Below are positions 6,972-43,606 of a stretch of DNA of 45,512 nucleotides, one piece after another. Below the pieces are notes generated by a model that saw only the letters and a program-made list of their open reading frames with translations, made no database searches and was not told the origin of the DNA. The stretch is taken from positions 1 through 45,512 of the forward strand of contig NZ_QQBI01000026.1 in assembly GCF_004302915.1 (NCBI RefSeq), given 5' to 3'. Within the stretch, counting starts at the first letter, position 1. The number at the start of each line of letters is the position of its first letter. The position numbers were made by a program, and so were the translations under genes. The stretch comes from Komagataeibacter xylinus. Its GTDB lineage: Bacteria > Pseudomonadota > Alphaproteobacteria > Acetobacterales > Acetobacteraceae.

Positions 6972-7034
6972 GGCACGCTGCCTTCATTTTTAAAAAAGGC
7001 AGCGTTTCTTCAAAGTTTTAGAAAAACGCTTCAC
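6972..7034. repeat. Dispersed two-hairpin repeat, copy A (degenerate)
   Basis: The GC-arm is CGCTGCC (6976-6982) paired with GGCAGCG (6998-7004). It differs from other copies (GCCGCC/GGCGGC) by a matched C-to-T and G-to-A pair, so the stem is kept. The second arm and terminal repeats are decayed (GCGTTTCTTC region, then CGCTTCACC). It lies between the convergent DsbA-fold gene and tRNA-Thr. Confidence 0.6.
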
Positions 7035-7101
7035 CCACACATGCCGGACCGATGTGACGGGTTTGACAGGCCAGGCGAATCGGACAGCAACAGAACACCA
7101 A

Positions 7102-7196: not shown

Positions 7197-7271
7197 TGGT
7201 GCCGGGTGAGGGATTTGAACCCCCGGCCTTCGGTTTACAAAACCGCTGCACTACCACTGTGCTAACCCGGC
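7197..7271 (-). tRNA. tRNA-Thr (TGT)
   Basis: On the minus strand: acceptor stem GCCGGGT/ACCCGGC, D-arm TAGCACAGTGGTAGTGCA, anticodon TGT (ACA at 7237-7239 on the plus strand) in loop TTTGTAA, T-arm GGGGGTTCAAATCCC, discriminator A and encoded CCA (7197-7199). Total 75 nt. It decodes ACA. Confidence 0.96.
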
Positions 7272-7509: not shown

Positions 7510-9630
7510 TCAATGCGCTGCCATTTTCCTGGCCCAGGCGGCATGAATGCGCGCGCGTTCGGCCGCACTCAGCCCGCCACTGCCAACCGCCGGGGCCGGT
7601 GCAGGCGAAGCACTTGCCCGCGCATGGCGCCCGTGGCGCACCGGGCGCGTGGCATGCGGCGCAATGCCTGCCGCCGGGTTCTCATTCACATCCCGTATCG
7701 CGCTGGCGCAGGACGAGTTCTTGCCCACGCCGCCTTCAATGGTGGGCAGCAGGCCGATGGGCGAGAACACGAAGCCCGTCAGCACCGAGGCCACGGCACG
7801 GCCGATAATCTCGGCGCCTGGGCGGATATTGGGGCTTTTGAGCGGCCCGGTGATGTAGAGCGGGCCGGGAAAGGACGCAACGGCGAAATGCCGCGAATGC
7901 GTGAGCAGCGTATAGTCGATGGTATTGTTGCTGAACTTGATGTCGCCCTTGCCCACGGTGCGCGTATCGCCCGTCTCGAGCAGCATGGTGCGGGTGTGGA
8001 AGACGCCCTCATTGAGCGGCATGTCGGCTATGAGGCATTTGAGGTCGGTACGCGCGGGCAGGCCAAGGGCGGAAAGCAGCGCCTTGCCCAGTTCCAGCCC
8101 CAGCAGGTCGGGCAGGATGGCCGAAATGTCACCGCCCTCATCCAGCGCCACGGTAATACCACCATTGCCACTGCCCACGATCTGGGCCAGCGACTGGCCA
8201 TGGCCATGCACCATGATGTGCCCGCCAATAATGCCCTGGCCGTGCAGGTTGCGGCCCATGGCCTGCATGAGGCGGGCAAGGTCGATCTGCTCCATGTCGA
8301 TGCGGATGCGCGCATCCACGCCGTTGCCCTGCGGCACGAAGGTGCCGCTACTGGCCAGCCGCCCCCGGCCCACGCCAAAATTCAGGTGATGCACGTCAAT
8401 CGTGCCATCGCGGATATCGGCCAGCACGTCGATATTGTCGAGCGGGACGTGTCGGTTCTCGATATGGTCGCCATGATAGGCGAGATGGACATTGGTGGCC
8501 CTGAGCCTGGGCATGTTGATCGGCGTTGTGGGCAGCACGGCGCCACTGGCCTCATGCGCCTTTGCCTCTGCCGCCTGCTGCGCGGTGGAAGGATGATCGC
8601 CCGGCGTCGCGCCAAAGAAACCACCCAGATCGGCAAGGTCCACGTGGCGGGAGTGCAGGTCGGTATCGACAAAGGTCACGGCCTGGTGCGGGTCCACGCT
8701 GAGCGTGCCGCCCAGGTCGCTGGAGCCGACCGTGCCCTCGAATTCATGAAAGCGCACCCGGCCATCGACATAATCAAGCCCGCCCGCCACATGGTAGGCG
8801 GGAGTTTGCGGAATCACCACGCCGGTCAGCGGGTAAAGCAGCGACATGTCCGGCCCCGCCAGCGTCAGCCGCAGCCGCGCGCCCCGAAACGAGAGCGGAT
8901 CATCCACCGACCCCACCAGCGTCAGCCGCGTGGGGCCGTGGCGCACGTCCACGTCAACCGGGTAGGGCTTTGTGCGGTCCGCCAGCGAGACCAGCGCCCC
9001 ACCCGAGAAATGGCCGATAATCGCCTGCCCGGTATAGGTGCCGCGTATGTCGGCCACGATGCGGGGCTGCACGTCGCCCTTGCCGGGCGTGGTGTGCACT
9101 TGCGCCCGCATGTCGCTGCGCAGGCCCGCATGCACGAGGTGGAGCTGGCCGTCATTGATGTTGAGTTCGCCAATCTGCGGCATGCCGCCCGATGAACTGC
9201 CGCCACTATCAGGAAACTGGTAGTTGGCCCGGCCGCCGCGCTGCGCGTTGAGTTCAACCACCGGCCTGTCGAGTGCGATGACCGGCAGGTCGATCCGCCC
9301 CCCCAGCAGGTGCCACAGGTCGAGGCCCACCGTCAGGTGATCGGCGGTGGCGAAGGGCGGCAGCTTTTCAAACCCGTCCGGCTCGTCAATGCGCACGCCA
9401 TCGGCCCTGACACGGATCACGCGCCCGACATGCACATGCAGGTGGGCCACCGTCACCCTGCGGCCAAGGGCGGCGCCCGCCCTGCGCTCCACGATGGGAA
9501 TGAACCAGTCCCATGACCAGAAGATGACCAGCGCCATGATCGCGACAGCCAGCACCCCCAGAACCGGAAAACGTATCTGTGCCAGCACGCTGCGCCGTGC
9601 CGTGATGTTCCTGGGTTCTGGTTGCGGCAT
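7510..9630 (-). CDS. AsmA-family inner-membrane/periplasmic protein
   Basis: A 706-residue protein with one N-terminal membrane segment (about residues 20-42, FPVLGVLAVAIMALVIFW) followed by a long beta-rich periplasmic part. The start RRAGAALGRRVTVAHLHVHVGR is typical of AsmA proteins, and repeats of 'GxLSxDP' and 'SSGTFVPQGNGVDARIRIDMEQIDLARLM' are visible. Bacterial AsmA-like proteins are proposed to bridge the periplasm and move phospholipids to the outer membrane. The last 60 residues are Ala/Pro/His/Arg-rich. The start ATG at 9630 has only a weak ribosome binding site. It is followed by repeat copy B; ilvD is divergent from it. Confidence 0.8.
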   Translation of the reverse strand: MPQPEPRNITARRSVLAQIRFPVLGVLAVAIMALVIFWSWDWFIPIVERRAGAALGRRVTVAHLHVHVGRVIRVRADGVRIDEPDGFEKLPPFATADHLTVGLDLWHLLGGRIDLPVIALDRPVVELNAQRGGRANYQFPDSGGSSSGGMPQIGELNINDGQLHLVHAGLRSDMRAQVHTTPGKGDVQPRIVADIRGTYTGQAIIGHFSGGALVSLADRTKPYPVDVDVRHGPTRLTLVGSVDDPLSFRGARLRLTLAGPDMSLLYPLTGVVIPQTPAYHVAGGLDYVDGRVRFHEFEGTVGSSDLGGTLSVDPHQAVTFVDTDLHSRHVDLADLGGFFGATPGDHPSTAQQAAEAKAHEASGAVLPTTPINMPRLRATNVHLAYHGDHIENRHVPLDNIDVLADIRDGTIDVHHLNFGVGRGRLASSGTFVPQGNGVDARIRIDMEQIDLARLMQAMGRNLHGQGIIGGHIMVHGHGQSLAQIVGSGNGGITVALDEGGDISAILPDLLGLELGKALLSALGLPARTDLKCLIADMPLNEGVFHTRTMLLETGDTRTVGKGDIKFSNNTIDYTLLTHSRHFAVASFPGPLYITGPLKSPNIRPGAEIIGRAVASVLTGFVFSPIGLLPTIEGGVGKNSSCASAIRDVNENPAAGIAPHATRPVRHGRHARASASPAPAPAVGSGGLSAAERARIHAAWARKMAAH

Positions 9631-9848: not shown

Positions 9849-11711
9849 ATGCCCGCCTATCGTTCCCGCACTACGACCCATGGCCGCAACATGGCCGGTG
9901 CGCGCAGCCTGTGGCGTGCAACCGGCATGAAGGATGGCGACTTCGGCAAGCCCATCATCGCCATCGCCAATTCGTTCACGCAGTTCGTGCCCGGCCATGT
10001 CCACCTCAAGGATATGGGCCAGCTCGTGGCGGGCGCCGTGGCCGAGGCCGGTGGCATCGGCCGCGAGTTCAACACCATCGCGGTCGATGACGGCATCGCC
10101 ATGGGCCATGGCGGCATGCTGTACAGCCTGCCCTCGCGCGAGCTGATTGCCGATGCGGTGGAATACATGGTCAACGCCCACTGCGCCGATGCGCTGGTGT
10201 GCATCAGCAACTGCGACAAGATCACGCCGGGCATGCTCATGGCGGCGATGCGGCTCAACATCCCCACCATCTTCGTCTCTGGCGGGCCGATGGAAGCGGG
10301 CAAGATCCTCAATAACGGCACCGAGCAGCAGGTCGACCTCATCACCTCGATGGTGGCGGCGGCCAACCCGGATGTGAGCGATGAGCAGTCGGCCACGATC
10401 GAACGCTCCGCCTGCCCCACCTGCGGCTCGTGCTCGGGCATGTTCACCGCCAATTCCATGAACTGCCTGACCGAGGCGCTCGGCCTGGCCCTGCCGGGCA
10501 ATGGCAGCCTTGTCGCCACCCACACCGACCGGCGCGACCTGTTCGAGCGCGCGGGCCGCGACATCGTGGCGCTGGCGAAGCGGTGGTACGAAAACGATGA
10601 TGCCACCGCCCTGCCGCGCGGCATCGCCACCAAGCCCGCGTTTGAAAACGCCATGACGGTCGATATCGCCATGGGTGGCTCGACCAACACCGTGCTGCAC
10701 CTGCTGGCTGCAGCGCACGAGGGCGAAGTGCCCTTCACCATGGCCGATATCGACCGCCTCTCGCGCCGCGTGCCCAACCTGTGCAAGGTCTCGCCCTCGC
10801 GCATGGACATCCATATGGAGGACGTGCACCGCGCGGGTGGCATTCCCGCCATCATGGGCGAACTGGCCCGCATGGGGCTGCTCAACCTGGACGCACCAAG
10901 CGTGCATGCCCCCGATGTCGGCACGGCGCTGGCCCGGTGGGATATCAGCACCGAAACGGCGGATGAGGCAGCCCGCACCTTCTTCAGCGCCGCCCCCGGT
11001 GGCGTGCGCACCACGCAGGCGTTCTCGCAGTCCAGCCGCTACAGGGCGCTTGATACCGACCGGGCGAATGGCGCGATCCGTGATGCGGAGCATGCCTACA
11101 GCCGCGATGGCGGGCTGGCCGTGCTGTTTGGCAACCTGGCCGAGGATGGCGCCATCGTCAAAACCGCTGGCGTGGCTGACAACCTGCTCACCTTCACCGG
11201 GCCGGCCCGCATCTTTGAAAGCCAGGATGCCGCTGTCTCGGCCATCCTCGGCAACGAGATCGTGGCGGGCGACGTGGTGGTGATCCGCTATGAAGGCCCC
11301 AAGGGCGGCCCCGGCATGCAGGAAATGCTGTACCCCACCAGCTACCTCAAATCGAAGGGCCTGGCCGAGAAATGCGCCCTGATTACCGATGGCCGCTTCT
11401 CGGGTGGCAGTTCGGGGCTTTCGATCGGCCATATCTCGCCCGAGGCGGCGGAAGGCGGCATCATCGGCCTGCTGGAGGAAGGGGACACGATCGAGATCGA
11501 CATCCCCAACCGCATCCTGCGCACCACCGTAAGCGATGCCACACTGGCCGCCCGGCGCGACGCGATGGAAGAGCGCGGCGACCGCGCCTGGCAACCTGAC
11601 CGCACCCGCACGGTCTCGGTCGCATTGCAGGCCTATAGCGCGCTGACCACCAGTGCTGCCCGTGGCGCCGTGCGCGACGTCAGCCAGCTTGGCCGCCGCA
11701 CCAGCCGCTAA
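9849..11711 (+). CDS. ilvD: Dihydroxy-acid dehydratase (IlvD)
   Basis: A 620-residue enzyme, matching the usual IlvD length (E. coli about 616). It converts 2,3-dihydroxy-isovalerate and -methylvalerate to the 2-keto acids of valine and isoleucine synthesis. Iron-sulfur cysteines are in [12 protein letters not shown] (near residue 122) and [19 protein letters not shown] (near residue 195). Other signatures are [21 protein letters not shown] and TDGRFSGG...IGHISPEA near the C-terminus. The start [19 protein letters not shown] at 9849 has GAGAGG upstream; an in-frame ATG at 9780 adds 23 non-conserved residues. No other ilv gene is adjacent. It ends at a strong terminator. Confidence 0.97.
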
Positions 11712-11719
11712 AACGGTTC

Positions 11720-11757
11720 GGGGTGCCCCCGCCTGCAGGCGGGCGGCACCCCGTTTT
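11720..11757 (+). terminator. Terminator after ilvD
   Basis: An extended stem: GGGGTGCC (11720-11727) pairs with GGCACCCC (11745-11752), with an inner perfect palindrome CCCGCCTGCAGGCGGG (11728-11743) and a T4 tail. It occupies the place of the GC-arm of the dispersed repeat, whose other half follows directly. Confidence 0.75.
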
Positions 11758-11794
11758 CAAAGCTTTTCGGAAAAAAGCTTCACCGAAAACTTTT
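11757..11794. repeat. Dispersed repeat, copy C (right half)
   Basis: An AAAGCTTTTCGG...AAAAAGCTTC hairpin followed by ACCGAAAACTTTT, i.e. the AT-arm and right terminal repeat of the family. The left half is replaced by the unrelated GC-rich ilvD terminator. It lies between ilvD and the convergent small gene. Confidence 0.7.
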
Positions 11795-11811: not shown

Positions 11812-12024
11812 TTACGCGCCCGGCAGGCAGGCCCTGCCGCGCCCCATGCGGCGGAACGTGGCCGTAACATGGTGCCGTAGCGCCGCAAGGTCGGGCAGAA
11901 TGGCGTTATGCAGCGAGCGCACGCTTTCATGCGTGGCATAAAAGCGCAGCGACGTGGCCAACCCGGTGATGATGGCCGCCCCCACGAACACGCCATCAAC
12001 TTCTATAATCTTTGAATCAAACAT
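11812..12024 (-). CDS. Small conserved-looking protein, unknown function
   Basis: A 70-residue protein with a good ribosome binding site (AGGAAG, 5 nt before the ATG at 12024). It starts MFDSKIIEVDGVFVGAAII and continues with RFYATHESVRSLHNAILPDLAALRHH. The mixed pattern (short strand-strand-helix, regular hydrophobic spacing) and codon use look genuine, and I recall similar small proteins of about 60-70 residues in acetic acid bacteria. No catalytic motif is visible. It converges on ilvD. Confidence 0.65.
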   Translation of the reverse strand: MFDSKIIEVDGVFVGAAIITGLATSLRFYATHESVRSLHNAILPDLAALRHHVTATFRRMGRGRACLPGA

Positions 12025-12518: not shown

Positions 12519-13175
12519 TTGCACCGCCCTGCATGCCTCCCCCACCTGCAACGCCTGCGCCGCCTGATCGGGGCTGCCGGGGCCTGTCTTGCCATGGCCC
12601 TGCCGCCTGCTCCGGGCCATGCGGCACCGGCCTATCCCGCCCCGATCATGGGGCCGCAGACCACGGCCCATGCCTGGGGCATTGAAACCCGCTTTGCCCA
12701 GAGCACACCCTGCCGGGTGGAGATGAGCATCAACCAGACGACCTTCCTGGCGCACATGCCCGAAATGATCCAGGTAGGGCTGTTCAACACGCAGGTAACA
12801 CCCGCGCTGCAAGAACAGATCCCCCATTACCTCATGAACACATTGCAGATCGATGTGACGCCGGGCTTCGTGCATGCGCTCTTTACCCAGCGCGGCGCGC
12901 CCGCAAGCTGCCATTTCGACTGGTTCTACACCGCCCCCGATGGCACCCGCCACCCGATGGTGGGCTTTGACATGACCCGCGCGGCCGATGCGCGGATTGA
13001 CTGGGCGCATCTGCGCTTTGGCGACATGGCGGCGGCCACGCGCAACCCGGTCATCGACCCCCGGTTCGATGCGCTGGTCAATCAGGAGACGGTGGACGTA
13101 ACCATTGCGCTCGGTCGCGCCACGCCAGAGACCGACCTGCCGCCCCCCTCAAACGCGGGCAAGGCCGCGCGGTAA
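12519..13175 (+). CDS. Exported protein of unknown function
   Basis: 218 residues from a TTG. A later in-frame ATG at 12594 would remove most of the signal peptide, so the TTG is preferred although its ribosome binding site is weak. An N-terminal Arg-rich segment followed by LIGAAGACLAMALPPAPGHAAPA is a signal peptide, with likely cleavage after GHA. The mature part has two Cys (in STPCRVEM and APASCHFDWFY) that could form a disulfide. No family is recognised. Confidence 0.6.
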   Translation: MHRPACLPHLQRLRRLIGAAGACLAMALPPAPGHAAPAYPAPIMGPQTTAHAWGIETRFAQSTPCRVEMSINQTTFLAHMPEMIQVGLFNTQVTPALQEQIPHYLMNTLQIDVTPGFVHALFTQRGAPASCHFDWFYTAPDGTRHPMVGFDMTRAADARIDWAHLRFGDMAAATRNPVIDPRFDALVNQETVDVTIALGRATPETDLPPPSNAGKAAR

Positions 13176-13195
13176 CCGGCTGCCCCCGGTTTGAA

Positions 13196-13263
13196 GGTGC
13201 TGTCTTTTTTAAAAAGCATTTGTTTTCAAAGCTTTTTGAAAAAAGATTTGCCAAAAACTTTTA
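13196..13263. repeat. Dispersed two-hairpin repeat, copy D (decayed GC-arm)
   Basis: The left portion is GTGCTGTCTTTTTTAAAAAGC (split GC-arm, poorly paired). It is followed by CAAAGCTTTTTG...AAAAGATTTG and the intact right terminal repeat CCAAAAACTTTTATCATT. It sits between two convergent genes. Confidence 0.7.
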
Positions 13264-13534: not shown

Positions 13535-14380
13535 GTGCCCCTCCCCTTTCTCCGCCCGCGCATGGCCTGGTCCGCGCTGTTTTTTGCCACGGCCCTTGTC
13601 GCCACCCTGCCCGCACGCGCCGAAGGCTGCGCGGAACTCGGCGCAGGCCAGCAACTGCCCGTGGTGGATAACCCGAAACTGGCGCGTGGGACGCAACTCC
13701 TGTGCAGCACCCGCTTCGCCGTACTGTATTCCGCCCTGGCGCGTGAGCCACTCTGGGCGGCCGAGCACCTCGACACCGCCATGGTCCGCGCCGCCATGCA
13801 GACCCCGCGCGAAGGCGAATTCCACCCCGACACGCGCATTGCCCCCGGCGCGCGCGCACAGCTTGAGGATTACGTGCGCTCCGGCTTCGATCGCGGGCAC
13901 ATGGCCCCCTCGGGCGACATGCCCGACCGGCAGAGCCAGCAGGAAACCTTCGCACTCTCCAACATCGTGCCCCAGCGCGCGGTGCTGAACCGGGGCCGCT
14001 GGGCCGAGATCGAATCCGCCGTGCGGGGCCTCGCCCTGCGCACGGGCAATCTTTACGTGGTCACCGGCCCGGCTTTCCACGCAAGCAGCCTGTCGGCCAT
14101 CGGGCCAGACCGGGTGCTGGTGCCCACCTCTACATGGAAGGCGGTCTATGACCCCCACAGGCAGCTATCGGGCGTGTATGTCTGCCACAATGTGGCGCGC
14201 AGCCCCGGTTGCAGCCATGTCAGCGTGGCGGAACTGACCCGTATCACCGGCGTCGATCCCTTCCCCGCGCTGCCAGCCAGCGTCAAGCAGAGCTGCATGG
14301 CGCTGCCGCTTGGCCATGCGCGCGCGACCACGAAGCACGCGCGGCGGCATACCCGGCGGCGTGTGTATTATCGCTGGTAA
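13535..14380 (+). CDS. Secreted DNA/RNA non-specific endonuclease (NUC1 family)
   Basis: 281 residues from a GTG; an ATG 27 bp later is also possible but loses the basic n-region (RPR). The signal peptide is MAWSALFFATALVATLPARA. The catalytic motif FDRGHMAPSGDMPD (His122 as general base, family consensus DRGHM) is present, followed by the metal-binding Asn helix in SNIVPQRAVLNRGRWAEIE and by LYVVTGPAF. Family members cut single- and double-stranded DNA and RNA with a divalent metal. Periplasmic or extracellular action, in nutrient scavenging or DNA clearance, is inferred from the signal peptide. The basic C-terminus (ATTKHARRHTRRRVYYRW) may bind nucleic acid. Confidence 0.88.
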   Translation: MPLPFLRPRMAWSALFFATALVATLPARAEGCAELGAGQQLPVVDNPKLARGTQLLCSTRFAVLYSALAREPLWAAEHLDTAMVRAAMQTPREGEFHPDTRIAPGARAQLEDYVRSGFDRGHMAPSGDMPDRQSQQETFALSNIVPQRAVLNRGRWAEIESAVRGLALRTGNLYVVTGPAFHASSLSAIGPDRVLVPTSTWKAVYDPHRQLSGVYVCHNVARSPGCSHVSVAELTRITGVDPFPALPASVKQSCMALPLGHARATTKHARRHTRRRVYYRW

Positions 14381-14400: not shown

Positions 14401-14477
14401 AAAAGTTTTTGGGTGCCGCCTTTTTTCAAAAAGGCGGCGTTCCTTGAAGCTTTTTGAAAAAAGCTTCACCAAAAACT
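14401..14477. repeat. Dispersed two-hairpin repeat, copy E (complete)
   Basis: The left terminal repeat AAAAGTTTTTGG is at 14401-14412. The GC-arm is GCCGCCTTTTTTC...AAAGGCGGC, the AT-arm is GAAGCTTTTTG...AAAAGCTTC, and the right terminal repeat is CCAAAAACT. It lies 20 bp after the endonuclease stop and 60 bp before the next gene on the same strand. Confidence 0.88.
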
Positions 14478-14537
14478 CCTGCTTGTTCGTGGGCTGATTT
14501 TGCACCTGCCTGCAAGGACCATTCTGGAGAAGGAGAC

Positions 14538-21783: not shown

Positions 21784-21821
21784 TCCTGCCTCCCTCCACG
21801 GGGAACGGGACCGACATGAAA

Positions 21822-21855
21822 AGCGCCGGAACCTTGCGGGTTCCGGCGCTTTTTT
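21822..21855 (+). terminator. Terminator after glnA
   Basis: A 12-bp stem AGCGCCGGAACC/GGTTCCGGCGCT with a 5-nt loop and a T6 tail, 39 bp after the stop. It is the strongest canonical terminator in the window. Confidence 0.9.
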
Positions 21856-25131: not shown

Positions 25132-26586
25132 ATGGACACAGCACGACTCCTGCAGCAGGCCGGGCATGACTTCCACGCCTTCGACAATGCCGATGCCGCC
25201 GTGGCCCGCATTACCGAACTCTATGACCACGCCGCCGGGTTGATCCGCCGCGCCTTCGCCACGCGCGATACATCGGGCCTGGAAAACGCGGTCTATCCCT
25301 ACCTCGCCTTCATGCCCGCCACGGCCCTGCCCGCCGACGGGCCGCGCCCGCCCTTTGACGTGGTGCTCGAGCCCGGCTTCTATGGCACCACGCTCACCCG
25401 CCCTGCCCTGTTTGGCGCCTACTGGCGCGAACAGATCGAAAGCCTGCTGCGCCATTACCGCACGCCGGTCATGGTCGGCCTGTCGCGCCAGCCCATCCCG
25501 CTCTCCTACGTGATGGAGGAGGCGGTGACCTCGCTGACCGAATCCGACCTTGCCTGGATCCAGGCCCATTTCGCGCTGCCTGACCTGCACGTGACCGATG
25601 ATTCGATCGCCAATTGCGACTACATCCCCCGTCCCGGCGTGCCGCGCCCGCTCGCGCTGTTCACGGCCCAGCGCACCGATTACTCGCTGGCGCGGCTGCA
25701 CCATTATACCGGCACGGCGCCAAGGCATTTCCAGCGTTTCATCCTGCTCACCAACTACCAGCGCTATGTCGATGCATTTCGTGAATACGGGCATGCGCAG
25801 GTGGATGCGGGGTCGGAATACACGGCGTTTGTCGAGCCGGGCGAAATCATCCACACCCGCGACGCCCCGCACGCGGCCACCCATGCTGGCCAGAACCTGC
25901 CGCAGATGCCCGCCTACCACCTGTGCCGCCCCGATGGCGATGGCATCACGCTCATCAACATCGGCGTGGGCCCCGCCAACGCCAAGACCATTACCGACCA
26001 CCTGGCCGTGCTACGCCCACATTGCTGGCTGATGGTGGGGCACTGCGCGGGGCTGCGGCGCAGCCAGAAGCTGGGCGACTACGTGCTGGCGCATGGCTAC
26101 CTGCGCGATGACCACGTGCTGGACGACGACCTGCCGCCCTGGGTGCCCGTGCCCCCCATTGCGGAGGTGCAGATGGCACTGCAGGACGTGACCGCCCGTG
26201 TGACCGGCCTGCATGATGCCGAGGTCAAGACCCGCCTGCGCACCGGCACGGTCATGACCACCGACAACCGCAACTGGGAGCTGCGGCTGGGTGCGCTGTT
26301 CACGCGCATCAACACATCCCGCGCCATTGCGGTGGACATGGAATCAGCCACGATCGCGGCCAATGGCTTCCGCTTCCGGGTGCCATACGGCACGCTGCTG
26401 TGTGTTTCGGACAAGCCGCTGCATGGCGAGCTCAAGCTGCGCGGCATGGCCAATGCCTTCTACCGCGAGCGCGTGCGCCAGCATCTGGTGGTGGGGATCG
26501 AGACCATGCAGCAGTTGCGCGCGCAGGGCGTGGACCGGCTGCACTCGCGCAAGCTGCGCGGGTTTGACGAGCCCGCTTTCCGCTAA
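25132..26586 (+). CDS. amn: AMP nucleosidase
   Basis: 484 residues, the same length as E. coli Amn. The N-terminal cap (residues 1-180) precedes a purine nucleoside phosphorylase-like catalytic domain with NIGVGPANAKTITDHLAVLRP, MVGHCAGLRRSQKLGDYVLAHGY and the C-terminal VDMESATIAANGFRFRVPYGTLLCVSDKPLHGELK. It hydrolyses AMP to adenine and ribose 5-phosphate, adjusting adenylate pools. It may be transcribed with the TonB-like gene (29-bp gap), and ends at repeat copy F. Confidence 0.95.
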   Translation: MDTARLLQQAGHDFHAFDNADAAVARITELYDHAAGLIRRAFATRDTSGLENAVYPYLAFMPATALPADGPRPPFDVVLEPGFYGTTLTRPALFGAYWREQIESLLRHYRTPVMVGLSRQPIPLSYVMEEAVTSLTESDLAWIQAHFALPDLHVTDDSIANCDYIPRPGVPRPLALFTAQRTDYSLARLHHYTGTAPRHFQRFILLTNYQRYVDAFREYGHAQVDAGSEYTAFVEPGEIIHTRDAPHAATHAGQNLPQMPAYHLCRPDGDGITLINIGVGPANAKTITDHLAVLRPHCWLMVGHCAGLRRSQKLGDYVLAHGYLRDDHVLDDDLPPWVPVPPIAEVQMALQDVTARVTGLHDAEVKTRLRTGTVMTTDNRNWELRLGALFTRINTSRAIAVDMESATIAANGFRFRVPYGTLLCVSDKPLHGELKLRGMANAFYRERVRQHLVVGIETMQQLRAQGVDRLHSRKLRGFDEPAFR

Positions 26587-26600
26587 ATCATTAAAATCAT

Positions 26601-26682
26601 AAAAGTTTTTGGGTACCGCCTTTTTTTCAGAAAGGCGGCATTCCTTTGAAGCTTTTTGGAAAAAAGCTTCACCAAGAACTTT
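26601..26682. repeat. Dispersed two-hairpin repeat, copy F (complete)
   Basis: The left terminal repeat AAAAGTTTTTGG is at 26601-26612, followed by the GC-arm ACCGCCTTTTTTTC...AAAGGCGGC, the AT-arm GAAGCTTTTTGG...AAAAGCTTC and the right end ACCAAGAACTTT (one mismatch). It sits exactly between the convergent amn and YmdB-type genes. Confidence 0.88.
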
Positions 26683-26692
26683 GATCTGTTGA

Positions 26693-27508
26693 TCAGAAAT
26701 CCGGCAGTGTCGGGGCCAGATGCCCGCCCTGCCGCACCGGGGCCATGCGGCGGGCCAGGCCGGTGGCATCATCGGTTTCCACCATCATGCCTGCGATGCT
26801 CGCTTCACCCTCCGCCGGTTGCAGGCGCTCGCCGGGCATCTTGCGCACGAATCGGGCAATGGCAGCCTCCTTGCCCATGCCGATCACGCTGTCATAGTCG
26901 CCACACATGCCCGCATCGGTCTGGAAAGCGGTGCCGTGGGGGAAGATGCGGTGGTCCGCCGTGGGCGTGTGCGTGTGCGTGCCGATGACCAGCGACACGC
27001 GGCCATCAAGGAAATGGCCCATGGCCCATTTCTCGCTCGTGGCCTCGGCATGCACGTCCACCACGGCGGCGTGCATGGTCACGCCCAGCCGGTGGCGCGA
27101 GAGGATATCGGTCACGCTGCGGAAGGGGTCATCCATCGCATCCATGAATTGCCGCCCCATGATGCTGACCACCAGCGCCTTGCGGCCATCGACGAGTTCC
27201 ACCACCACGCTGCCCTGCCCCGGCGTGCCGGGCGGGTAGTTGGCGGGGCGGATGATGCGGGGTTCGCTGCCGATATGGCCGATCAGGTCGCGCCGGTCCC
27301 AGCTATGGTTGCCCAGCGTGATGACATCGGCCCCCGCCTCAAGCAGGTCGCGGCCGATGGCGGGCGAGAGGCCAAAGCCGTGGCTGGCATTCTCGCCATT
27401 GACCACCACGAGGTCGAGGGCGAGATCGCGCCGCAGGCCGGGCAGCCGGGAAATGACGGCCTCGCGCCCCACGCGCCCGACAATATCGCCCAGAAACAGT
27501 ATTCTCAA
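26693..27508 (-). CDS. YmdB-family calcineurin-like phosphoesterase
   Basis: 271 residues from a TTG. Metallophosphoesterase motifs: LFLGDIVGRVGRE, VVNGENASHGFGL, ITLGNHSWDRRDLI and DVHAEATSEKWAMGHFLDGRVSLVIGTHTHTPTAD, with two metal-binding His/Asp sets. YmdB-type enzymes (TIGR00282) hydrolyse 2',3'-cyclic nucleotides and affect RNA turnover in Bacillus. It is 15 bp downstream of the 5-formyl-THF cyclo-ligase gene on the same strand, a common bacterial pairing. Confidence 0.9.
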   Translation of the reverse strand: MRILFLGDIVGRVGREAVISRLPGLRRDLALDLVVVNGENASHGFGLSPAIGRDLLEAGADVITLGNHSWDRRDLIGHIGSEPRIIRPANYPPGTPGQGSVVVELVDGRKALVVSIMGRQFMDAMDDPFRSVTDILSRHRLGVTMHAAVVDVHAEATSEKWAMGHFLDGRVSLVIGTHTHTPTADHRIFPHGTAFQTDAGMCGDYDSVIGMGKEAAIARFVRKMPGERLQPAEGEASIAGMMVETDDATGLARRMAPVRQGGHLAPTLPDF

Positions 27509-28135: not shown

Positions 28136-28149
28136 GTGAAATGATACGG

Positions 28150-28305
28150 AGCCGCCATGGCCGTTGGTCGGATCAGCCCTCCCGGACCTGCTGACGCAGG
28201 TGGGCGCCAGATAACGTGACCACGATCACGACAGTGCCAGCTCCCTAGGAAGTGCTTATCGGCCCAGGGGTTGAATCATGCCTGACGCACCCGGCAGCCC
28301 CGCCC
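28150..28305 (-). ncRNA. ssrS: 6S RNA
   Basis: On the minus strand the 177-bp gap between zapA and the cyclo-ligase gene has a long imperfectly paired rod. The 5' side contains CCCCTGGGCCGATA (28257-28270 on the plus strand), almost identical to the conserved E. coli 6S segment CCCCTGAGCCGATA. A CCTGC-gtca-GCAGG hairpin is on the 3' side, and a GGGAGGGCTGATCC segment can pair back towards the 5' end. Location between zapA and ygfA is the classic 6S position. 6S RNA binds the housekeeping sigma-70 holoenzyme and reprograms transcription in stationary phase. The ends given are approximate. Confidence 0.82.
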
Positions 28306-30454: not shown

Positions 30455-31087
30455 ATGACCGATTGCCAGCTCTATCTCATCACCCCCGAATCGCTTGATC
30501 CGGCCACCTTCGCCCCCCTTCTGGCCGAGGCGCTGGACGCAGGCCCGGTTGCGGCGGTGCAACTGCGCCTTAAAAACGTCGATGACGACACGATCCGCCG
30601 CGCGGTGGAGGTGCTCCAGCCCATAACCCATGCGCGGGACGTGGCCTTCATCATGAACGACCGCCCCGACCTTGCCGTAAGCTGCGGCTGCGACGGGGCG
30701 CATGTGGGCATGGATGATACCGATGTGGCCACCGCCCGGCGCATATTGGGTGACAGCCTGCAACTCGGCGTATCGTGCTACGACAGCCGCGACATGGCCC
30801 TGCGCGCGGGCGAGGCCGGGGCGGACTACGTGGCGTTTGGCGCGTTCTTCCCCTCGCCCTCAAAGGAAACCGAAGTGCGGGCCGACCCGGCGCTGCTCAC
30901 GTGGTGGAGCAGCATGATCGAACTGCCGGTCGTGGCCATTGGCGGCATCACGCCAGAGAACTGCGGCACGCTGGTGCGCGCAGGGGCAGATTTCCTGTCG
31001 GTCATCAGTGCGGTGTGGTCGCACCCTGATGGACCGGGTGCAGGCGTAAAGGCCATGAACACGGCAATCGCAGCTGCAGAAGAATAA
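30455..31087 (+). CDS. thiE: Thiamine-phosphate synthase
   Basis: 210 residues. The TIM-barrel signatures are AAVQLRLKNVDD, FIMNDRPDLAVSCGCDGAHVGMDD, GVSCYDSRDMALRAGEAGADYVAFGAFFPSPSK and VVAIGGITPENCGTLVRAGADFLSVISAVW. It joins the hydroxymethylpyrimidine and thiazole phosphates to make thiamine phosphate. No TPP riboswitch was seen in the 83-bp leader. It converges on the HEAT-like gene, with repeat copy G between. Confidence 0.95.
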   Translation: MTDCQLYLITPESLDPATFAPLLAEALDAGPVAAVQLRLKNVDDDTIRRAVEVLQPITHARDVAFIMNDRPDLAVSCGCDGAHVGMDDTDVATARRILGDSLQLGVSCYDSRDMALRAGEAGADYVAFGAFFPSPSKETEVRADPALLTWWSSMIELPVVAIGGITPENCGTLVRAGADFLSVISAVWSHPDGPGAGVKAMNTAIAAAEE

Positions 31088-31140
31088 AAGCTTTGAAAGA
31101 CACCGCCTTTTTGAAAAAAGGCGGCACCCGAAAACTTTTA
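31087..31140. repeat. Dispersed two-hairpin repeat, copy G (truncated, inverted)
   Basis: The AT-arm is reduced to AAAGCTTTGAAAGA, followed by an intact GC-arm (CCGCCTTTTTG...AAAGGCGG) and right end ACCCGAAAACTTTTA. It has the same orientation as copy B. It fills the gap between convergent thiE and the HEAT-like gene. The HEAT-like gene's stop codon (TAA on the minus strand, 31138-31140) lies inside the repeat end. Confidence 0.78.
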
Positions 31141-32157
31141 ATCCATGACCCCTGTCTGGCGCTGCAGGTAACCTGCCCACCGCCGCACGGTCGGGCTCCG
31201 GTCAGCCTCAAGCACAGGCACAATCAGCGCCAGATCAGGGAAATCCCGCCAGCAATGCGCCAATGCCCGCAGCGCCGTGCGCCTGACCATGGCCGAACGG
31301 TCATGCAGGGCCGAGGCGATCAGGGCATTGCGGTCAACGGGCAGGCTGATATCACGCCGCGCCAGTACTGGCGCAGGGCGGTTGAAGCCCAGTAACCTGT
31401 TCACCCATTCCCGCCGGATGCCCGTTTTCCACCGGGCCTGTCCCCATAGCAGCACCTGTAGCGCCGTGGCCCGCACGCTGGCCTGCCGTGCCATGCCCGC
31501 CAGCATGGGCAGGGCAGCATCAAGCAGCGGCGTGCGCAGGAAGGCGCGCAGGGTCACGCCCAGCGGGCCATCGCATGCGGTGGCGAACCGCGCGACCAGC
31601 TGCACCCGCACGGCGGGCCGGGCAAACAGCCGATCCATGCAGACAGCCTGCGCGGGCGCCCAACGGGTCCATTCCTGCCAGTGCCCCCGCAGGGCCAGCC
31701 CCATGGCGACCGCGACATCAGGCGCAACCTGCAAGAACAGCCTGCCCGCGCACCGTGCAGCGGCCTCGCGCACGGGGCCTGCCCAGTCATTGAGGCGCAT
31801 GGCAAGGGCCGCCAGCATGAAAGGCGAGCGCGGCACGGTGGCCAGCGCGTTGAGGGCAGCCTCGCGCACATGGCCATCGCGGTGCAATAAGAGAACCTGC
31901 GCCAGCATGGGCATGGTGGCCAGCACGCCGCATATCAGGCGGCGATCCTGTTCAGGGTCCACGGGGTAATAAAAACAGCACAGCGCGTTTCTGATCCGCA
32001 CGCTCGCCGTAACAACCTGCGCTGCCGGCAGGCCATCAAGCCCCGCAACACACGCCGCGACAAGGGCGATGGGCGGTCTGGTCCCCGCCAGCAGGCATTG
32101 GCCAAGCGCTACCAGATCCGCCTCCAGCGCAGGGGGCAGGTCGTAATCCGTCAACAT
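31138..32157 (-). CDS. HEAT-repeat-like protein
   Basis: About 339 residues from the ATG at 32157 (GGAGC upstream); longer in-frame starts at 32190 and 32259 are possible. The sequence is all-helical with repeated 'REAALNALATVP', 'REAAARCAGRLFL', 'RATALQVLLWGQ' and 'RRTALRALAHCW' units spaced by about 35-40 residues or multiples of this, as in HEAT/ARM scaffolds. No catalytic motif is visible. It would act as a protein-protein platform. The last codon and stop are in the repeat G boundary. Confidence 0.65.
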   Translation of the reverse strand: MLTDYDLPPALEADLVALGQCLLAGTRPPIALVAACVAGLDGLPAAQVVTASVRIRNALCCFYYPVDPEQDRRLICGVLATMPMLAQVLLLHRDGHVREAALNALATVPRSPFMLAALAMRLNDWAGPVREAAARCAGRLFLQVAPDVAVAMGLALRGHWQEWTRWAPAQAVCMDRLFARPAVRVQLVARFATACDGPLGVTLRAFLRTPLLDAALPMLAGMARQASVRATALQVLLWGQARWKTGIRREWVNRLLGFNRPAPVLARRDISLPVDRNALIASALHDRSAMVRRTALRALAHCWRDFPDLALIVPVLEADRSPTVRRWAGYLQRQTGVMD

Positions 32158-32283
32158 GGTAAGAAATGCTCCATGACCGGGTTCAGGCATCCCGAACGGG
32201 ATGAATACCTGCCGACATGAGGCCGGTGATCTTTTTACCAGCGAGGCAGAAGGTTGCAAATCCTAATATACCAAAAAGAACAA

Positions 32284-32360
32284 ATGTTTTTGGGTGCTGC
32301 CTTTTTTCAAAAAAGCGGTGTTCTTTGAAGCTTTTGAAAAAAGCTTTACCAAAAACTTTT
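32284..32360. repeat. Dispersed two-hairpin repeat, copy H (complete, diverged)
   Basis: The left end is AATGTTTTTGGG, the GC-arm GCTGCCTTTTTTC...AAAAGCGGTG (partly mispaired), the AT-arm GAAGCTTTTG...AAAAGCTTT and the right terminal repeat CCAAAAACTTTT. It lies 16 bp past the epmA stop. Confidence 0.82.
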
Positions 32361-32376
32361 ATTTATTTTGAATGGT

Positions 32377-33399
32377 TTACGACGCATCTCCCAGCCACTG
32401 CACATCCGCAATGCGGTTCGTGCCCGCTGCCAGCATCACCAGCCGGTCAAAGCCCAGCGCAATACCCGCACACGGCGGCAGGCTGCCAAGGGCGGACAGG
32501 AAAGCCTCGTCCATCGGCCAGTCCAGCCCGGATTCGCCGGGGTAAAGCCCTAGCCGCCGCGCCCGGTCGGCCTCAAAGCGGGCGCGCTGCTCGGCAGGGT
32601 CGGTCAGTTCCTCGAACGCATTGGCCAGTTCGATACCCCCTGCATATAGCTCGAAACGCAGCGCCACGCGCGGGTCCGCCGGGTCACGCCGGGCCAGCGC
32701 CGCCTGGCTTGCGGGCCAGTGGGTGAGGAAGGTGGGGCGCGTGCGGCCGATATGCGGCTCGATGCGTGCCATCATCAGGCGAAAGAACAGGTCCTCCCAC
32801 GTCTCATCGCGGCGCAGGTCACAGCCTGCGGCCTCAGCCAGCGCCGGGGCGTCGCCCTCATGCGCCAGAATGTCCACGCCCGCATATCGGGCAAAGGCTT
32901 CGGCCACCGTCAGCCGCTCGAAGGGGGTAGCAATACTGATCTCATCCCCTCCCACCCGCACCACCGGCGGCAGGACGGCACGCAGCAGGGCTTCGGTTTC
33001 ATCCATCAGGCTGCCCAGCGTGGCGCCGGGGCGGTACCATTCCAGCATGGTGAATTCATGGGCGTGCAGCCTGCTGCCCTCGGCATTACGCCACACCCGC
33101 GCCAGTTGGTACACAGGCAGGCCGGTGGCGGCGACGATGCGCTTCATGGCAAATTCCGGGCTGGTGTGCAGCCACAGCCGTTCGCGGCTGCCATCAGCGC
33201 CTGCCCGCTCGGTGGCAAACACCTTGAGATGCACCTCCTCGCCCGGAGTCGGCACGGCGTAGGGGGTCTCGACTTCCGTGTAACCGCGCGCATCAAAAAA
33301 GGCCCGCACGCCGCGCAGCACGAGGTTGCGGCGCAGCAGCCGCGGCAGGCGGTCGGCAATGCGGGCGCAGTCGGGGCGTGGGGACAGGGACTCGGGCAT
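32377..33399 (-). CDS. epmA: EF-P--(R)-beta-lysine ligase EpmA
   Basis: 340 residues. A class II lysyl-tRNA synthetase-like catalytic core without the anticodon-binding domain. Class II motifs: AFFDARGYTEVETPYAVPTPG (motif 1), LHTSPEFAMKRIVAATGLPVYQLARVWRNAE...HEFTMLEWYR (motif 2) and GIALGFDRLVML (motif 3). It attaches (R)-beta-lysine to EF-P. The ATG at 33399 has AGGAGCG upstream. It is divergent from epmB, 51 bp apart, with efp downstream of the latter. Confidence 0.94.
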   Translation of the reverse strand: MPESLSPRPDCARIADRLPRLLRRNLVLRGVRAFFDARGYTEVETPYAVPTPGEEVHLKVFATERAGADGSRERLWLHTSPEFAMKRIVAATGLPVYQLARVWRNAEGSRLHAHEFTMLEWYRPGATLGSLMDETEALLRAVLPPVVRVGGDEISIATPFERLTVAEAFARYAGVDILAHEGDAPALAEAAGCDLRRDETWEDLFFRLMMARIEPHIGRTRPTFLTHWPASQAALARRDPADPRVALRFELYAGGIELANAFEELTDPAEQRARFEADRARRLGLYPGESGLDWPMDEAFLSALGSLPPCAGIALGFDRLVMLAAGTNRIADVQWLGDAS

Positions 33400-38201: not shown

Positions 38202-39152
38202 ATGGCGCGCCGTTCCCGTCGCTCGATCCGTTCCGAACTGAATGCCTGGCCAGGCTATGTTGATGCGCTGTCAACACTGCTCATGGTCATCATCTTCGTG
38301 CTGCTGGTGTTTGTTCTGGGGCAGGCTTTCCTGTCCGTAACCCTGAACAAGCGCCAGCAGGCCCTTGACCAGCTCGAGCACGAGGTGGCCCGCCTGGCCC
38401 AGATGCTCTCGCTCGAGCACAGCCACACCACAGCGCTGCAGACCGAGATCGCCACCCTGCACAAGGAGCACGAGGCGGACGTGGCCACCGCCACCTCGCT
38501 CAACGCCCAGCTCAACCAGCAGACCAGCGAGCGCGATACCGCCCAGAGCCACGCCTCTGCCCTTGATGCGCAGCTGGCGCAGCTCAGCGCCGTCAGCGCC
38601 GCACTCGAGGTGAGCGAACAGGCCGTGCAGGAGCGCGACCACAAGATCGACAACCTTGGCATGCAGCTCAACGTGGCGCTGGCGCGCAAGGTGGAGCAGC
38701 TGCAGCAGTACCGCTCGGAATTCTTTGGGCGCCTGCGCAGCGTGATGCAGGACCACAAGGGCGTGCAGATCGTGGGCGACCGCTTCGTGTTCCAAAGCGA
38801 GGTGCTGTTCCCCGTCGGCAGTGCCGACCTCTCGCCCGAGGGCGTGGAGCAGATCAAGATCCTGGCCAAAACGCTGCGGCAGGTCGCCGCCCAGATTCCA
38901 CCCGATGTGCCGTGGATCCTGCGCGTGGATGGCCATGCCGACCGGCTGCCCATCCACACCGCCTTCCCCAGCAACTGGGAGCTGTCATCCGAGCGCGCCA
39001 TTACGGTGGTCAAGCTGCTGATTGCCGAGGGCATCAACCCGCACCATCTGGCCGCGACCGGCTTTTCGGACTACCAGCCGCTCGATAACGGCACCACGGC
39101 AGAGGCCTATGCCCGCAACCGCCGCATCGAGTTCCGCCTGACGGACCGCTGA
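38202..39152 (+). CDS. MotB/OmpA-like stator-type protein
   Basis: 316 residues. A basic cytoplasmic N-terminus (MARRSRRSIR), then one membrane segment beginning PGYVDALSTLLMVIIFVLLV. Asp21 takes the place of the proton-carrying Asp of MotB/ExbD/TolR. A Gln-rich coiled coil spans about residues 50-175, and a C-terminal OmpA domain is FPVGSADLSPEG...VDGHADRLPIH...LSSERAITVVKLLIAEGINPHHLAATGFSDYQPL...RNRRIEFRLTD, which binds peptidoglycan. The long coiled coil is not found in TolR or classical MotB. It is 26 bp downstream of the MotA-like gene. Confidence 0.82.
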   Translation: MARRSRRSIRSELNAWPGYVDALSTLLMVIIFVLLVFVLGQAFLSVTLNKRQQALDQLEHEVARLAQMLSLEHSHTTALQTEIATLHKEHEADVATATSLNAQLNQQTSERDTAQSHASALDAQLAQLSAVSAALEVSEQAVQERDHKIDNLGMQLNVALARKVEQLQQYRSEFFGRLRSVMQDHKGVQIVGDRFVFQSEVLFPVGSADLSPEGVEQIKILAKTLRQVAAQIPPDVPWILRVDGHADRLPIHTAFPSNWELSSERAITVVKLLIAEGINPHHLAATGFSDYQPLDNGTTAEAYARNRRIEFRLTDR

Positions 39153-39170: not shown

Positions 39171-39250
39171 AAACGTTTTTGGGTGCCGCCTTTTTTCAAA
39201 AAGGCGGCATTCTTCGAAGCTTTTTGAAAAAAGCTTCACCAAAAACTTTT
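39171..39250. repeat. Dispersed two-hairpin repeat, copy I (complete, best preserved)
   Basis: The left end AAACGTTTTTGGG (one mismatch), GC-arm GCCGCCTTTTTTC...AAAGGCGGC, AT-arm GAAGCTTTTTG...AAAAGCTTC and right terminal repeat CCAAAAACTTTT. It is placed between the MotB-like gene and the convergent TPR gene, 19 bp from each. Confidence 0.9.
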
Positions 39251-39268: not shown

Positions 39269-39946
39269 TCAGGTGGGCTGGCCAAAGGCCTTCAGGCGCA
39301 ACTGCTCGGTCTGGTGGGCGGCATCGGGAATGGTGGGCTCAAGCTGCACCACATGCTGCCATGCTTTCCACGCGGCCTGCCAGTCGCCGCGCTGCTCTTC
39401 CGTCTCCTGCAGGATCTTCCAGGCCATGACATCGCGCCCGTCATGATGCAGCGCCACGCCAAGGTCGGCCACCGCGCCATCGGGGTTGGCAGCGGCCAGG
39501 CGGGCCTGCGCGCGGTTGCGCCACAGCACCTCAACATCGGGCTGGAGCAGCAGGGCATCATCCATGTCCTGCTCGGCATCGAGCGGGCGCTGGGCGTCAA
39601 GGTCGTCCTGCGCGCGGCGCACAAGCAACGTGGTGGTGGGGGCCAGATCCTTCAGGCGCAACTGCTCGATGCGCCCGAGCAGGTCGCGCGCGCCGCGCGC
39701 GGTGGCCGCATGGGCCAGTTCCGTCTCGAGGCTGTCGAGCGATGGCTCGGCCGGTGTGCTGCCCTGCGCCCTGGCGGGAGGACCTGCGTGCCGGTCAAGC
39801 CCGTGGGCCGAAGCATCTGCCGCATGGGCCTGCAGGGGCAACAGGCTGGCTGCAAGCATGAGTACGCACGCAAATCCACGCACACAGGTTACTGAAAACC
39901 TGCCTGCGCGGCTTTGCGGCTGTTCAAAGATGAACCGGACGGTCAA
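39269..39946 (-). CDS. Exported TPR-like protein
   Basis: 225 residues from a TTG; a later ATG at 39859 would remove most of the signal peptide. The signal peptide is FACVLMLAASLLPLQAHA. The mature part has helical repeats (LLGRIEQLRLKDLAP, then AEQDMDDALLLQPDVEVLWRNRAQARLAAANPDGAVADLGVALHHDGRD) with TPR spacing, so it is probably a periplasmic scaffold. It follows rpmJ on the same strand by 13 bp. Confidence 0.65.
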   Translation of the reverse strand: MTVRFIFEQPQSRAGRFSVTCVRGFACVLMLAASLLPLQAHAADASAHGLDRHAGPPARAQGSTPAEPSLDSLETELAHAATARGARDLLGRIEQLRLKDLAPTTTLLVRRAQDDLDAQRPLDAEQDMDDALLLQPDVEVLWRNRAQARLAAANPDGAVADLGVALHHDGRDVMAWKILQETEEQRGDWQAAWKAWQHVVQLEPTIPDAAHQTEQLRLKAFGQPT

Positions 39947-42609: not shown

Positions 42610-42686
<77 letters not shown>

Positions 42687-42732
42687 CTTTATGGTGCCCT
42701 CCCAAAATCAAGACTGTCTCCATAAGAGATCA

Positions 42733-42776
42733 GGAAGAACATCGCCTTTTTTGAAAAAAGGCAGCGCCCGAAAACG
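42733..42776. repeat. Dispersed two-hairpin repeat, copy J (one arm only)
   Basis: Only a GC-arm (ATCGCCTTTTTTG...AAAAGGCAGCG) and a remnant right end CCCGAAAACG remain. Orientation matches copies B and G. It sits between tRNA-Asp and the convergent kinase gene, 9 bp past the latter's stop. Confidence 0.6.
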
Positions 42777-42784
42777 TCCGTTTT

Positions 42785-43606
42785 TTAGCCCACCCCGGCA
42801 TCATCAAGATACTGCGCCACCATGGGCCGGTATGTCGCGCCAAACAGGCGCAGGTGCACCAGCGCGATCCACAGCCGGTAAATGGCAAAACGCACCGCAT
42901 GGCCCGGCTCCAGCGGGCCCCCGGCCATGTAGAACGCTGCCGGCGGCTGCGAGAACACGCCCACGGTTGCCAGATCCACCTCCGCATGGCCGTAATAGCA
43001 GCACGGGTCGATCAGGCCGGTCACGCGCCGGTGCGCCACCAGCACGTTGCCACTCCACAGATCGCCATGCAGCAGGGCGGGCGCAGGTGTTGCGGGCAGC
43101 AGGTCGGGCAGGCGGCGCATGAGCTGTTCAAGGCGGCGGGCCACGTCAATGGGCACATGCGCCAGATGTACGCCCAGGCGCTGCGCGGCCCAGAATTCGG
43201 GCCAGCGATCGGCCCATGTGTTGCATACGCTGACCGCACCAAGGGCGTAATCCCCCGCCCAGCCATAGCGGATCATGCCACCTTCGGGGCGGGCTTCATG
43301 CATTTGTGCCAGCACGCGGCCCAGATCGCCCCAGCAGGTGGCCAGCGTGCCCTCCATGGGCCGGTATTCCATCACCAATGCATCCGCATCCACCGCCAGG
43401 ACAGCGGGCACCGGCGCACCACTGCCGCCAAGAGCGCGCAGCATGGCGGCCTCGGCCAGCGGGTCGGGGCCATTCTTGGCCACCACCGTGCGCCCGTCAT
43501 TAAGGTAGACCAGCAGGGTCTGGGCAATATCGCCGCCCTGAAGCGGATGCCAGTTCCACAGCCCTGAGCCCACCAGAGTGGCGGCATGGCGGGCGAGGCG
43601 GCTCAT
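42785..43606 (-). CDS. Fructosamine/ribulosamine 3-kinase-like protein
   Basis: 273 residues. It has the FN3K/APH-like kinase fold: TLLVYLNDGRTVVAKNGP (ATP Lys), LVMEYRPMEG, catalytic loop PALLHGDLWSGNVLV (HGDLWSGN) and metal Asp in GLIDPCCYYGHAEVDLA. Family members phosphorylate ketosamine adducts on proteins (fructosamine or ribulosamine), leading to their removal. The start at 43606 overlaps the preceding phosphatase stop by ATGA, so translation is coupled. It is last in the leftward pgl-rpiA-gntK-phosphatase operon. Confidence 0.9.
   Translation of the reverse strand: MSRLARHAATLVGSGLWNWHPLQGGDIAQTLLVYLNDGRTVVAKNGPDPLAEAAMLRALGGSGAPVPAVLAVDADALVMEYRPMEGTLATCWGDLGRVLAQMHEARPEGGMIRYGWAGDYALGAVSVCNTWADRWPEFWAAQRLGVHLAHVPIDVARRLEQLMRRLPDLLPATPAPALLHGDLWSGNVLVAHRRVTGLIDPCCYYGHAEVDLATVGVFSQPPAAFYMAGGPLEPGHAVRFAIYRLWIALVHLRLFGATYRPMVAQYLDDAGVG

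Follow-up and report, generated by a model that had tools for sequence, protein, structure and literature searches.

The 80 bp at positions 39,171 to 39,250 of the window, by which we mean the whole analysed stretch of 45,512 nucleotides from Komagataeibacter xylinus (NZ_QQBI01000026.1; contig 20 of a draft genome of 3.63 Mb), raise the question of what role a short and strongly folding repeat plays in a genome in which it occurs many times. An initial annotation, made from the letters alone, had listed this place as one of ten copies of a dispersed, MITE-like family of hairpins. Judged from its sequence and surroundings, the unit is, with a probability of about 0.68, a portable bidirectional intrinsic transcription terminator that has partly spread as cargo of an IS5-type MITE.

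Each complete copy spans about 80 bp: between two outer arms, a first hairpin, footed by GCCGCC/GGCGGC, is joined through a short T-rich linker to a second hairpin, GAAGCTTTTTGAAAAAAGCTTC. The terminal inverted repeats around two hairpins that had been described before, with the arms AAAAGTTTTTGG and CCAAAAACTTTT enclosing a GC-footed and an GAAGCTTTTT-based hairpin, were recognized correctly; each of the five complete window copies carries at least one changed letter in an outer arm. A covariance model trained on 57 copies, including five window copies, matched all ten listed places (Table 1). Five of these places hold complete copies, which match by construction since they were among the 57 input copies, and the other five hold worn or shortened ones. 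The family, its fold and the absence of a transposase were all borne out. One extra place in the window, 21819-21853, was matched by the model at noise level (E 0.13).

Table 1. Copies of the repeat in the 45,512-nt window, with covariance-model E-values and neighboring genes.
Position	Strand	State of the copy	E-value	Setting
39171..39250	+	complete, reference	3e-26	OmpA-family gene 38202-39152 (+) and predicted gene 39269-39883 (-); 18 nt from each stop codon
7394..7473	-	complete	1e-25	~36 nt past end of gene 7510-9588 (-)
14401..14480	+	complete, right arm worn	2e-24	20 nt past gene 13535-14380 (+)
26601..26683	+	complete	2e-19	convergent genes 25132-26586 (+) and 26693-27508 (-)
32282..32360	+	complete	1e-20	past gene 32377-33399 (-)
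11711..11794	+	worn	2e-9	past gene 9849-11711 (+), faces predicted gene 11812-12024 (-)
31086..31139	-	shortened, hairpin 2 mostly gone	2e-9	convergent genes 30455-31087 (+) and 31138-32190 (-)
13193..13262	+	worn	9e-6	past gene 12594-13175 (+)
6972..7045	+	worn	4e-4	convergent: gene 6384-6947 (+) and tRNA gene 7200-7271 (-)
42711..42779	-	worn	0.012	convergent: tRNA gene 42610-42683 (+) and gene 42785-43606 (-)

The predicted gene that faces the OmpA-family gene across the reference copy gave weak TPR matches in Pfam, under the curated cut-off. The window also contains four tRNA genes, of which two each precede a worn copy of the repeat, and a 6S RNA gene at 28145-28303 (-).

The high density that had been reported holds for the window (10 copies in 45.5 kb), whereas a genome sample of 800 kb, consisting of four contigs searched at E ≤ 0.01, was more thinly populated with 86 copies, or about one per 9 kb, and is itself non-random because its contigs were chosen as already known copy carriers. 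This sample comprises 87 listed places, two of which are the halves of one copy cut at the end of a stretch. For the genome as a whole, at least 150 matches, all with E ≤ 0.002, were obtained with 150 of 2209 candidates scored. That the repeat is more frequent than expected by chance was confirmed with a class-wide sample of 385 genomes, in which a broad model at 1e-6 matched the K. xylinus genome alone; the others were, judged by list order, four members of the same family, which were also negative, and 380 genomes from outside Acetobacteraceae, none of which matched. Among the matches listed, the exact-arm pattern was seen in Komagataeibacter, Novacetimonas, Gluconacetobacter entanii, Gluconobacter and some Acetobacter records. 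In a set of 397 Acetobacteraceae genomes from 102 genera, the narrow model (0.001) matched at least 66 genomes and at least 19 genera and the broad model (1e-6) at least 66 genomes and at least 21 genera, all of these being lower bounds because 11 candidates were scored per genome under strict filters. A plasmid collection yielded 11 places in six records; a possible depletion of the repeat on plasmids was dropped, as such counts depend on the share of acetic-acid-bacteria plasmid DNA in the collection.

The main clue to the role of the repeat, missed in the initial annotation, is that it follows stop codons and occupies the space between convergent genes. For this analysis, a simple codon-score program was written to predict genes (231 training ORFs, 89% coding). 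Not one of the 86 copies in the 800-kb sample was situated wholly within a predicted gene; 45 occupied convergent, 37 co-directional and three divergent gaps, and one was unclassed. When the gaps of at least 100 nt in this sample were counted instead, the proportion containing a copy was 34 of 48 for convergent, 32 of 160 for co-directional and three of 76 for divergent gaps (Fisher 7e-16 for convergent vs. divergent). In co-directional gaps, 32 of the 37 copies were closer to the upstream stop codon (median 19 nt) than to the downstream start codon (97 nt), and the sense orientation was weakly preferred (24 vs. 13). Copies from convergent gaps did not score better than those from co-directional ones (p 0.19), a point against the terminator reading. 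A further 119 copies from other species, selected by their exact outer arms and forming 93 groups by shared flanks, were distributed over 81 convergent gaps, 29 co-directional gaps, one divergent gap and eight locus ends, at a median distance of 21 nt from the stop codon. Other genera provided 29 loci, and the 23 of sufficient length placed the copy in convergent gaps nine times, in co-directional gaps 12 times and in divergent gaps twice. Hairpin clusters located shortly after stop codons have been put forward as intrinsic terminators in general (PMC8355165).

Ordinary terminators were searched for in gaps of 40-500 nt. They were present in 18 of 32 convergent and 49 of 201 co-directional gaps that are free of copies, and were rarer in gaps with a masked copy (13 of 41 and two of 35, respectively), a comparison that is biased because masking takes sequence away.

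The layout of the unit suggests how one copy could serve two genes. In RNA read from either side, the two A/T-topped hairpins would fold first and would draw the outer arms GUUUUUGG and CCAAAAAC together as a closing stem, with the U-rich tail CUUUUAUnnnUUU coming next. Such a tail would follow the closing stem because of the flanking letters, which in 122 copies were rich in A on the left and rich in T on the right, and since the outer arms are inverted repeats, both strands would yield a similar tail, so that one copy could end two convergent transcripts. A stem with T-rich flanks on both sides is present, but the part of the stem beside the tail is A/T-rich, unlike the GC stem of a classic terminator, and the letters of hairpin 2 are more uniform than a plain terminator requires. 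The fold is predicted to stop RNA polymerase, and the copies have probably been kept for this function.

The same placement is predicted by another explanation, namely that the unit acts like REP or BIME elements, either as a stabilizer of RNA 3′-ends or as a DNA target of a topoisomerase or nucleoid protein at sites where convergent transcription piles up positive supercoils. REPs are indeed placed alike, in unidirectional and convergent gaps downstream of genes, as stated in PMC3733652, and the uniform letters of the hairpins could represent a binding site. Nevertheless, we consider this explanation improbable, as T-rich tails on both strands suit termination and as the letters of the arms change between genera with their pairing kept, a pattern that points to structure rather than to a fixed binding sequence.

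In the 57-copy set, the pairs of the outer arms and of the second hairpin are nearly invariant; the uniformity of the outer arms is partly a selection artefact, since most of these copies were picked by exact outer arms. Compensated variation is seen in the GC foot of hairpin 1, with 20 double-change cells vs. 5.0 after shuffling in the within-group alignment, though without an excess of pairs changed on both sides (3 vs. 2.0). In other genera, the three-armed layout is kept with different arms, e.g., GTGGCCCC, GCAGC, CTCCC, GGTTC or CTTC feet, each with its complement. The cross-genus alignment was model-fitted, and its 58 distinct rows include most copies on both strands. Of its cells, 97.8% were paired compared to 80.6% after shuffling, and double-change cells numbered 315 compared to 85.6. 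The covariation score amounted to 0.432, as opposed to 0.130 for shuffled and at most 0.134 for slid alignments, and both sides changed in 23 of 32 pairs; further pair types showed no excess in this alignment (48 vs. 46.1 shuffled). A wider proposal is that of a standard two-way terminator common to the family Acetobacteraceae, a single three-armed unit whose arms drift by compensated changes between genera, which serves most long convergent gene pairs of Komagataeibacter and which has turned into cargo of an IS5-type MITE, terminators themselves thereby spreading as mobile parts; we would give this wider proposal an even chance of being correct.

Against the terminator reading, the three-armed form is the minimum-energy fold of only 18 out of 30 copies (29 from other genera and one from the window). 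Several of the remaining copies have two similar arms that can also join into a single long hairpin. Two near-identical arms, for which either a three-armed or a one-long-hairpin fold is possible, were seen at the loci L278, L300, L292 and L317 from other genera. An extension of the stem past the 80 bp was not apparent, in that the first 20 flank positions of the exact-arm copies from other species were without clear excess pairing; position 3 paired most, with 51 vs. 40.4 after shuffling (maximum 52).

The history of individual copies was followed by comparing 54 copies of the K. xylinus genome with up to six relatives whose flanks are about 92-93% identical. The resulting 171 comparisons gave 128 cases of a copy in the same orientation, 13 cases of the opposite orientation (at six sites), nine absences, 18 weak and three ambiguous cases. 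The same picture emerged in the opposite direction, when 85 strong places in three relatives were used as the starting set. No clean empty site of the 80-bp core was found among the absences inspected; the spacer was deleted or replaced instead. Likewise, direct repeats of 2-9 nt around the core were within the range of shuffled flanks in 118 copies, giving no sign of a target-site duplication. A TA or AT duplication around the 80-bp unit, as left by IS630-like MITEs, seemed plausible from the letters of the flanks but was rejected, because shuffled flanks give similar counts.

The sites with opposite orientation might point to a DNA cruciform or a site of recombination, as suggested by the fold given in the initial annotation, which inverts at its location and has the switching of orientation as its purpose. 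The cleanest case is the window copy at 32282-32360: five relatives carry it reversed at this position, and the near flanks on both sides are preserved. Such reversals are rare, and at the other five sites the flank or neighborhood, judged by eye, differs as well, as would be given by replacement through a new MITE. Moreover, flipping would presumably change little, as the layout is nearly symmetric. Switching as the purpose of the repeat is therefore very improbable.

A point against the terminator reading lies in the substitutions between orthologs. They were determined in 60 high-scoring ortholog pairs of the same orientation from 23 sites, drawn from the 171 comparisons. Changes per site were fewer in the two hairpins (0.082 and 0.049) than in the linker (0.188) or the outer stem (0.139), and the share of changed cells that kept the pair was 42 of 95 for hairpin 1, 14 of 50 for hairpin 2 and 35 of 169 for the outer stem. 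Substitutions in these 60 pairs hence do not favor the keeping of pairs, as drift might give, which weakens the claim that every single copy is under selection. The cross-genus pattern would then reflect selection on those copies that seeded lineages, or on the function over longer times. Concerted evolution by gene conversion was ruled against, since orthologs are closer to each other than paralogs (mean identity 0.893 vs. 0.839; linker 0.81 vs. 0.68), so that copies mostly evolve on their own.

Apart from the core, a longer form was identified. An element of 151-165 bp (~162 bp) with the ends GAGACTGTTTGAAAA carries the 80-bp unit as its middle; 20 distinct full-length copies were obtained when it was sought by its ends (GAGACTG.../...CAGTCTC). 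It has terminal inverted repeats and a length well under 1 kb, which is too short for a transposase gene. Exact 3-bp repeats (TTA, TAA or TTG) were present at the ends of nine of the 20 distinct copies (10 of 22 rows), and repeats of 2, 4 or 8 bp in none of the 22 rows. Evidence for movement of the 162-bp form consists of two cases only, both judged by eye: a copy in genome G340 is nested in the apparent remnants of an older core, which G401 retains in a largely whole state, and a copy in G400 is missing from relatives, which have a near-clean empty site there. Copies with a MITE-like flank on at least one side make up 16 of the 87 listed places in the 800-kb sample (three of them on both sides), leaving the core without recognizable MITE ends as the majority form (71 of 87), and in other genera MITE-like ends exceeded the 99th percentile of the control at one of 22 loci (L297). 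The earlier description of the family as MITE-like is thus appropriate for a minority, the ~162-bp form, and does not apply to the 80-bp unit, which has no duplication and is mostly found at the same place in relatives. Copies without MITE ends are probably older units or eroded MITEs. A ~162-bp MITE with IS5-like ends would explain the spread of the core and also, by replacement, a change of orientation at a given site.

Concerning the source of the transposase, DUF4096-type IS5 transposases are common: three genomes gave 20, 14 and 28 matches. One IS of 884 bp in G400 (L387; GAGCCTGTTTGGAAA), which has a DUF4096 transposase, carries ends matching those of the MITE in 13 of 15 letters and is flanked by TTA and TGA, i.e., without an exact duplication; an IS with ends identical to the 162-bp MITE was not present among 30 loci. 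We take the relatives of this MITE to belong to the IS1031 group with its TNA target, and an IS5-type (IS1031-like) transposase probably moves the 162-bp form. At another locus (L392, on contig C65 of the K. xylinus genome), an IS5-type element of 930 bp was observed; it has the ends GAGACTGATCCGAAAG and GAGCCTGATCCGAAAG, shows a TAA duplication and presumably resembles IS1031. G400 contains 64 places with an GAGACTGTTTGAAAA end (at most one mismatch), compared to 4-24 in seven other genomes, and the 162-bp MITE seems to be most active in G400.

These findings bear on the view that the repeat is a selfish 162-bp MITE without a role for its host, which inserts widely, is purged where it hits genes or promoters so that survivors remain behind genes, and decays in its outer parts until the 80-bp middle is what can still be recognized. 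The 162-bp form is a true MITE in its features, the 16 places with a MITE-like flank are as expected, ortholog substitutions appear unconstrained for pairing, and the full-length copies shun divergent gaps as well (nine convergent, 10 co-directional and one at a locus end), from which it follows that insertion preference or fast purging plays a part. Purging alone, however, predicts many copies far from stop codons in long gaps, whereas the observed median distance is about 20 nt. It also sits poorly with copies kept in place and orientation in 128 of the 171 orthologous comparisons, with a majority form that lacks recognizable MITE ends and a duplication of its own, and with other genera in which the layout of the core occurs with other arms and, at all of 22 loci except L297, without a MITE-like flank. 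We therefore regard a purely selfish MITE as unlikely.

A description of the repeat family was not found in the open-licence literature, although one could exist elsewhere; the core strings and the MITE end were absent from open-licence papers on acetic acid bacteria, and the papers that contained one of the strings were unrelated by title. With respect to this literature, the 80-bp family is a not previously described terminator-like small dispersed repeat and the 162-bp form is a new MITE. Compared with IS5-family (IS1031-like) MITEs, the 162-bp form shares the GAG... ends, the 3-bp repeats (TTA, TAA or TTG) and the similarity of its ends to those of the 884-bp IS; it differs in having a structured core that persists without MITE ends, also in other genera. 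In uptake-sequence terminators, known from Neisseria and Haemophilus, a single repeated sequence family likewise serves many genes as terminator. Terminator hairpins formed by uptake signals are described in PMC2267715; unlike these, the repeat studied here has no single short uptake word, and its arms differ between genera.

SPRITE, which is named in the review PMC10969869, is likewise a small dispersed terminator-like repeat, and the comparison covers this respect only. It belongs to another phylum; the repeat described here has two arms inside an inverted-repeat stem and co-varies over a bacterial family. REP, BIME and REPIN elements are similar in their high copy number, palindromic nature and location behind genes in convergent and co-directional gaps, as outlined in PMC3733652. 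REPs are defined there as single palindromes of 20-40 bp, most with a GTAG or CGTC tag, and CGTC repeats are reported as missing from Acetobacteraceae (PMC3733652). The Komagataeibacter repeat is set apart by its size and shape, being an 80-bp three-armed unit with two hairpins in a stem. Correia elements of Neisseria and ERIC are folding MITEs as well, with effects on transcripts. According to PMC10969869, inversion in place occurs in Correia elements, which are mainly found upstream of genes and carry promoters, unlike the 80-bp repeat, which avoids divergent (promoter) gaps. No link was found to the intrastrand-triplex BoxC/PIT repeats of E. coli as presented in PMC4666352.

If the terminator reading is correct, the convergent transcripts of a GC-rich lineage would end through one shared and portable part, and a mobile element would carry, and apparently leave behind, a useful regulatory part. 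The family would then also offer ready-made two-way terminators for the engineering of cellulose- and vinegar-making bacteria, as well as a natural series of co-varying three-way-junction terminators with which rules of termination at branched stems could be tested.

A 732-bp IS with an IS1595 (ISXO2-like) transposase (Pfam PF12762) was found at L158:12388-13119 (contig C13 of the K. xylinus genome), at L045:1503-2234 and at L307, L308 and L301. Searches with this transposase in viral contigs and plasmids yielded general relatives only. In five of 12 copies of the IS inspected by eye, it was located in or beside elements of the repeat family; specific targeting of the repeat was rejected, since the remaining copies also chose A/T-rich sites and a general A/T preference suffices. 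Finally, the G340 counterpart of the copy at C13:209300-209379 has been shortened by a deletion between short internal repeats, as expected of replication slippage at hairpins.
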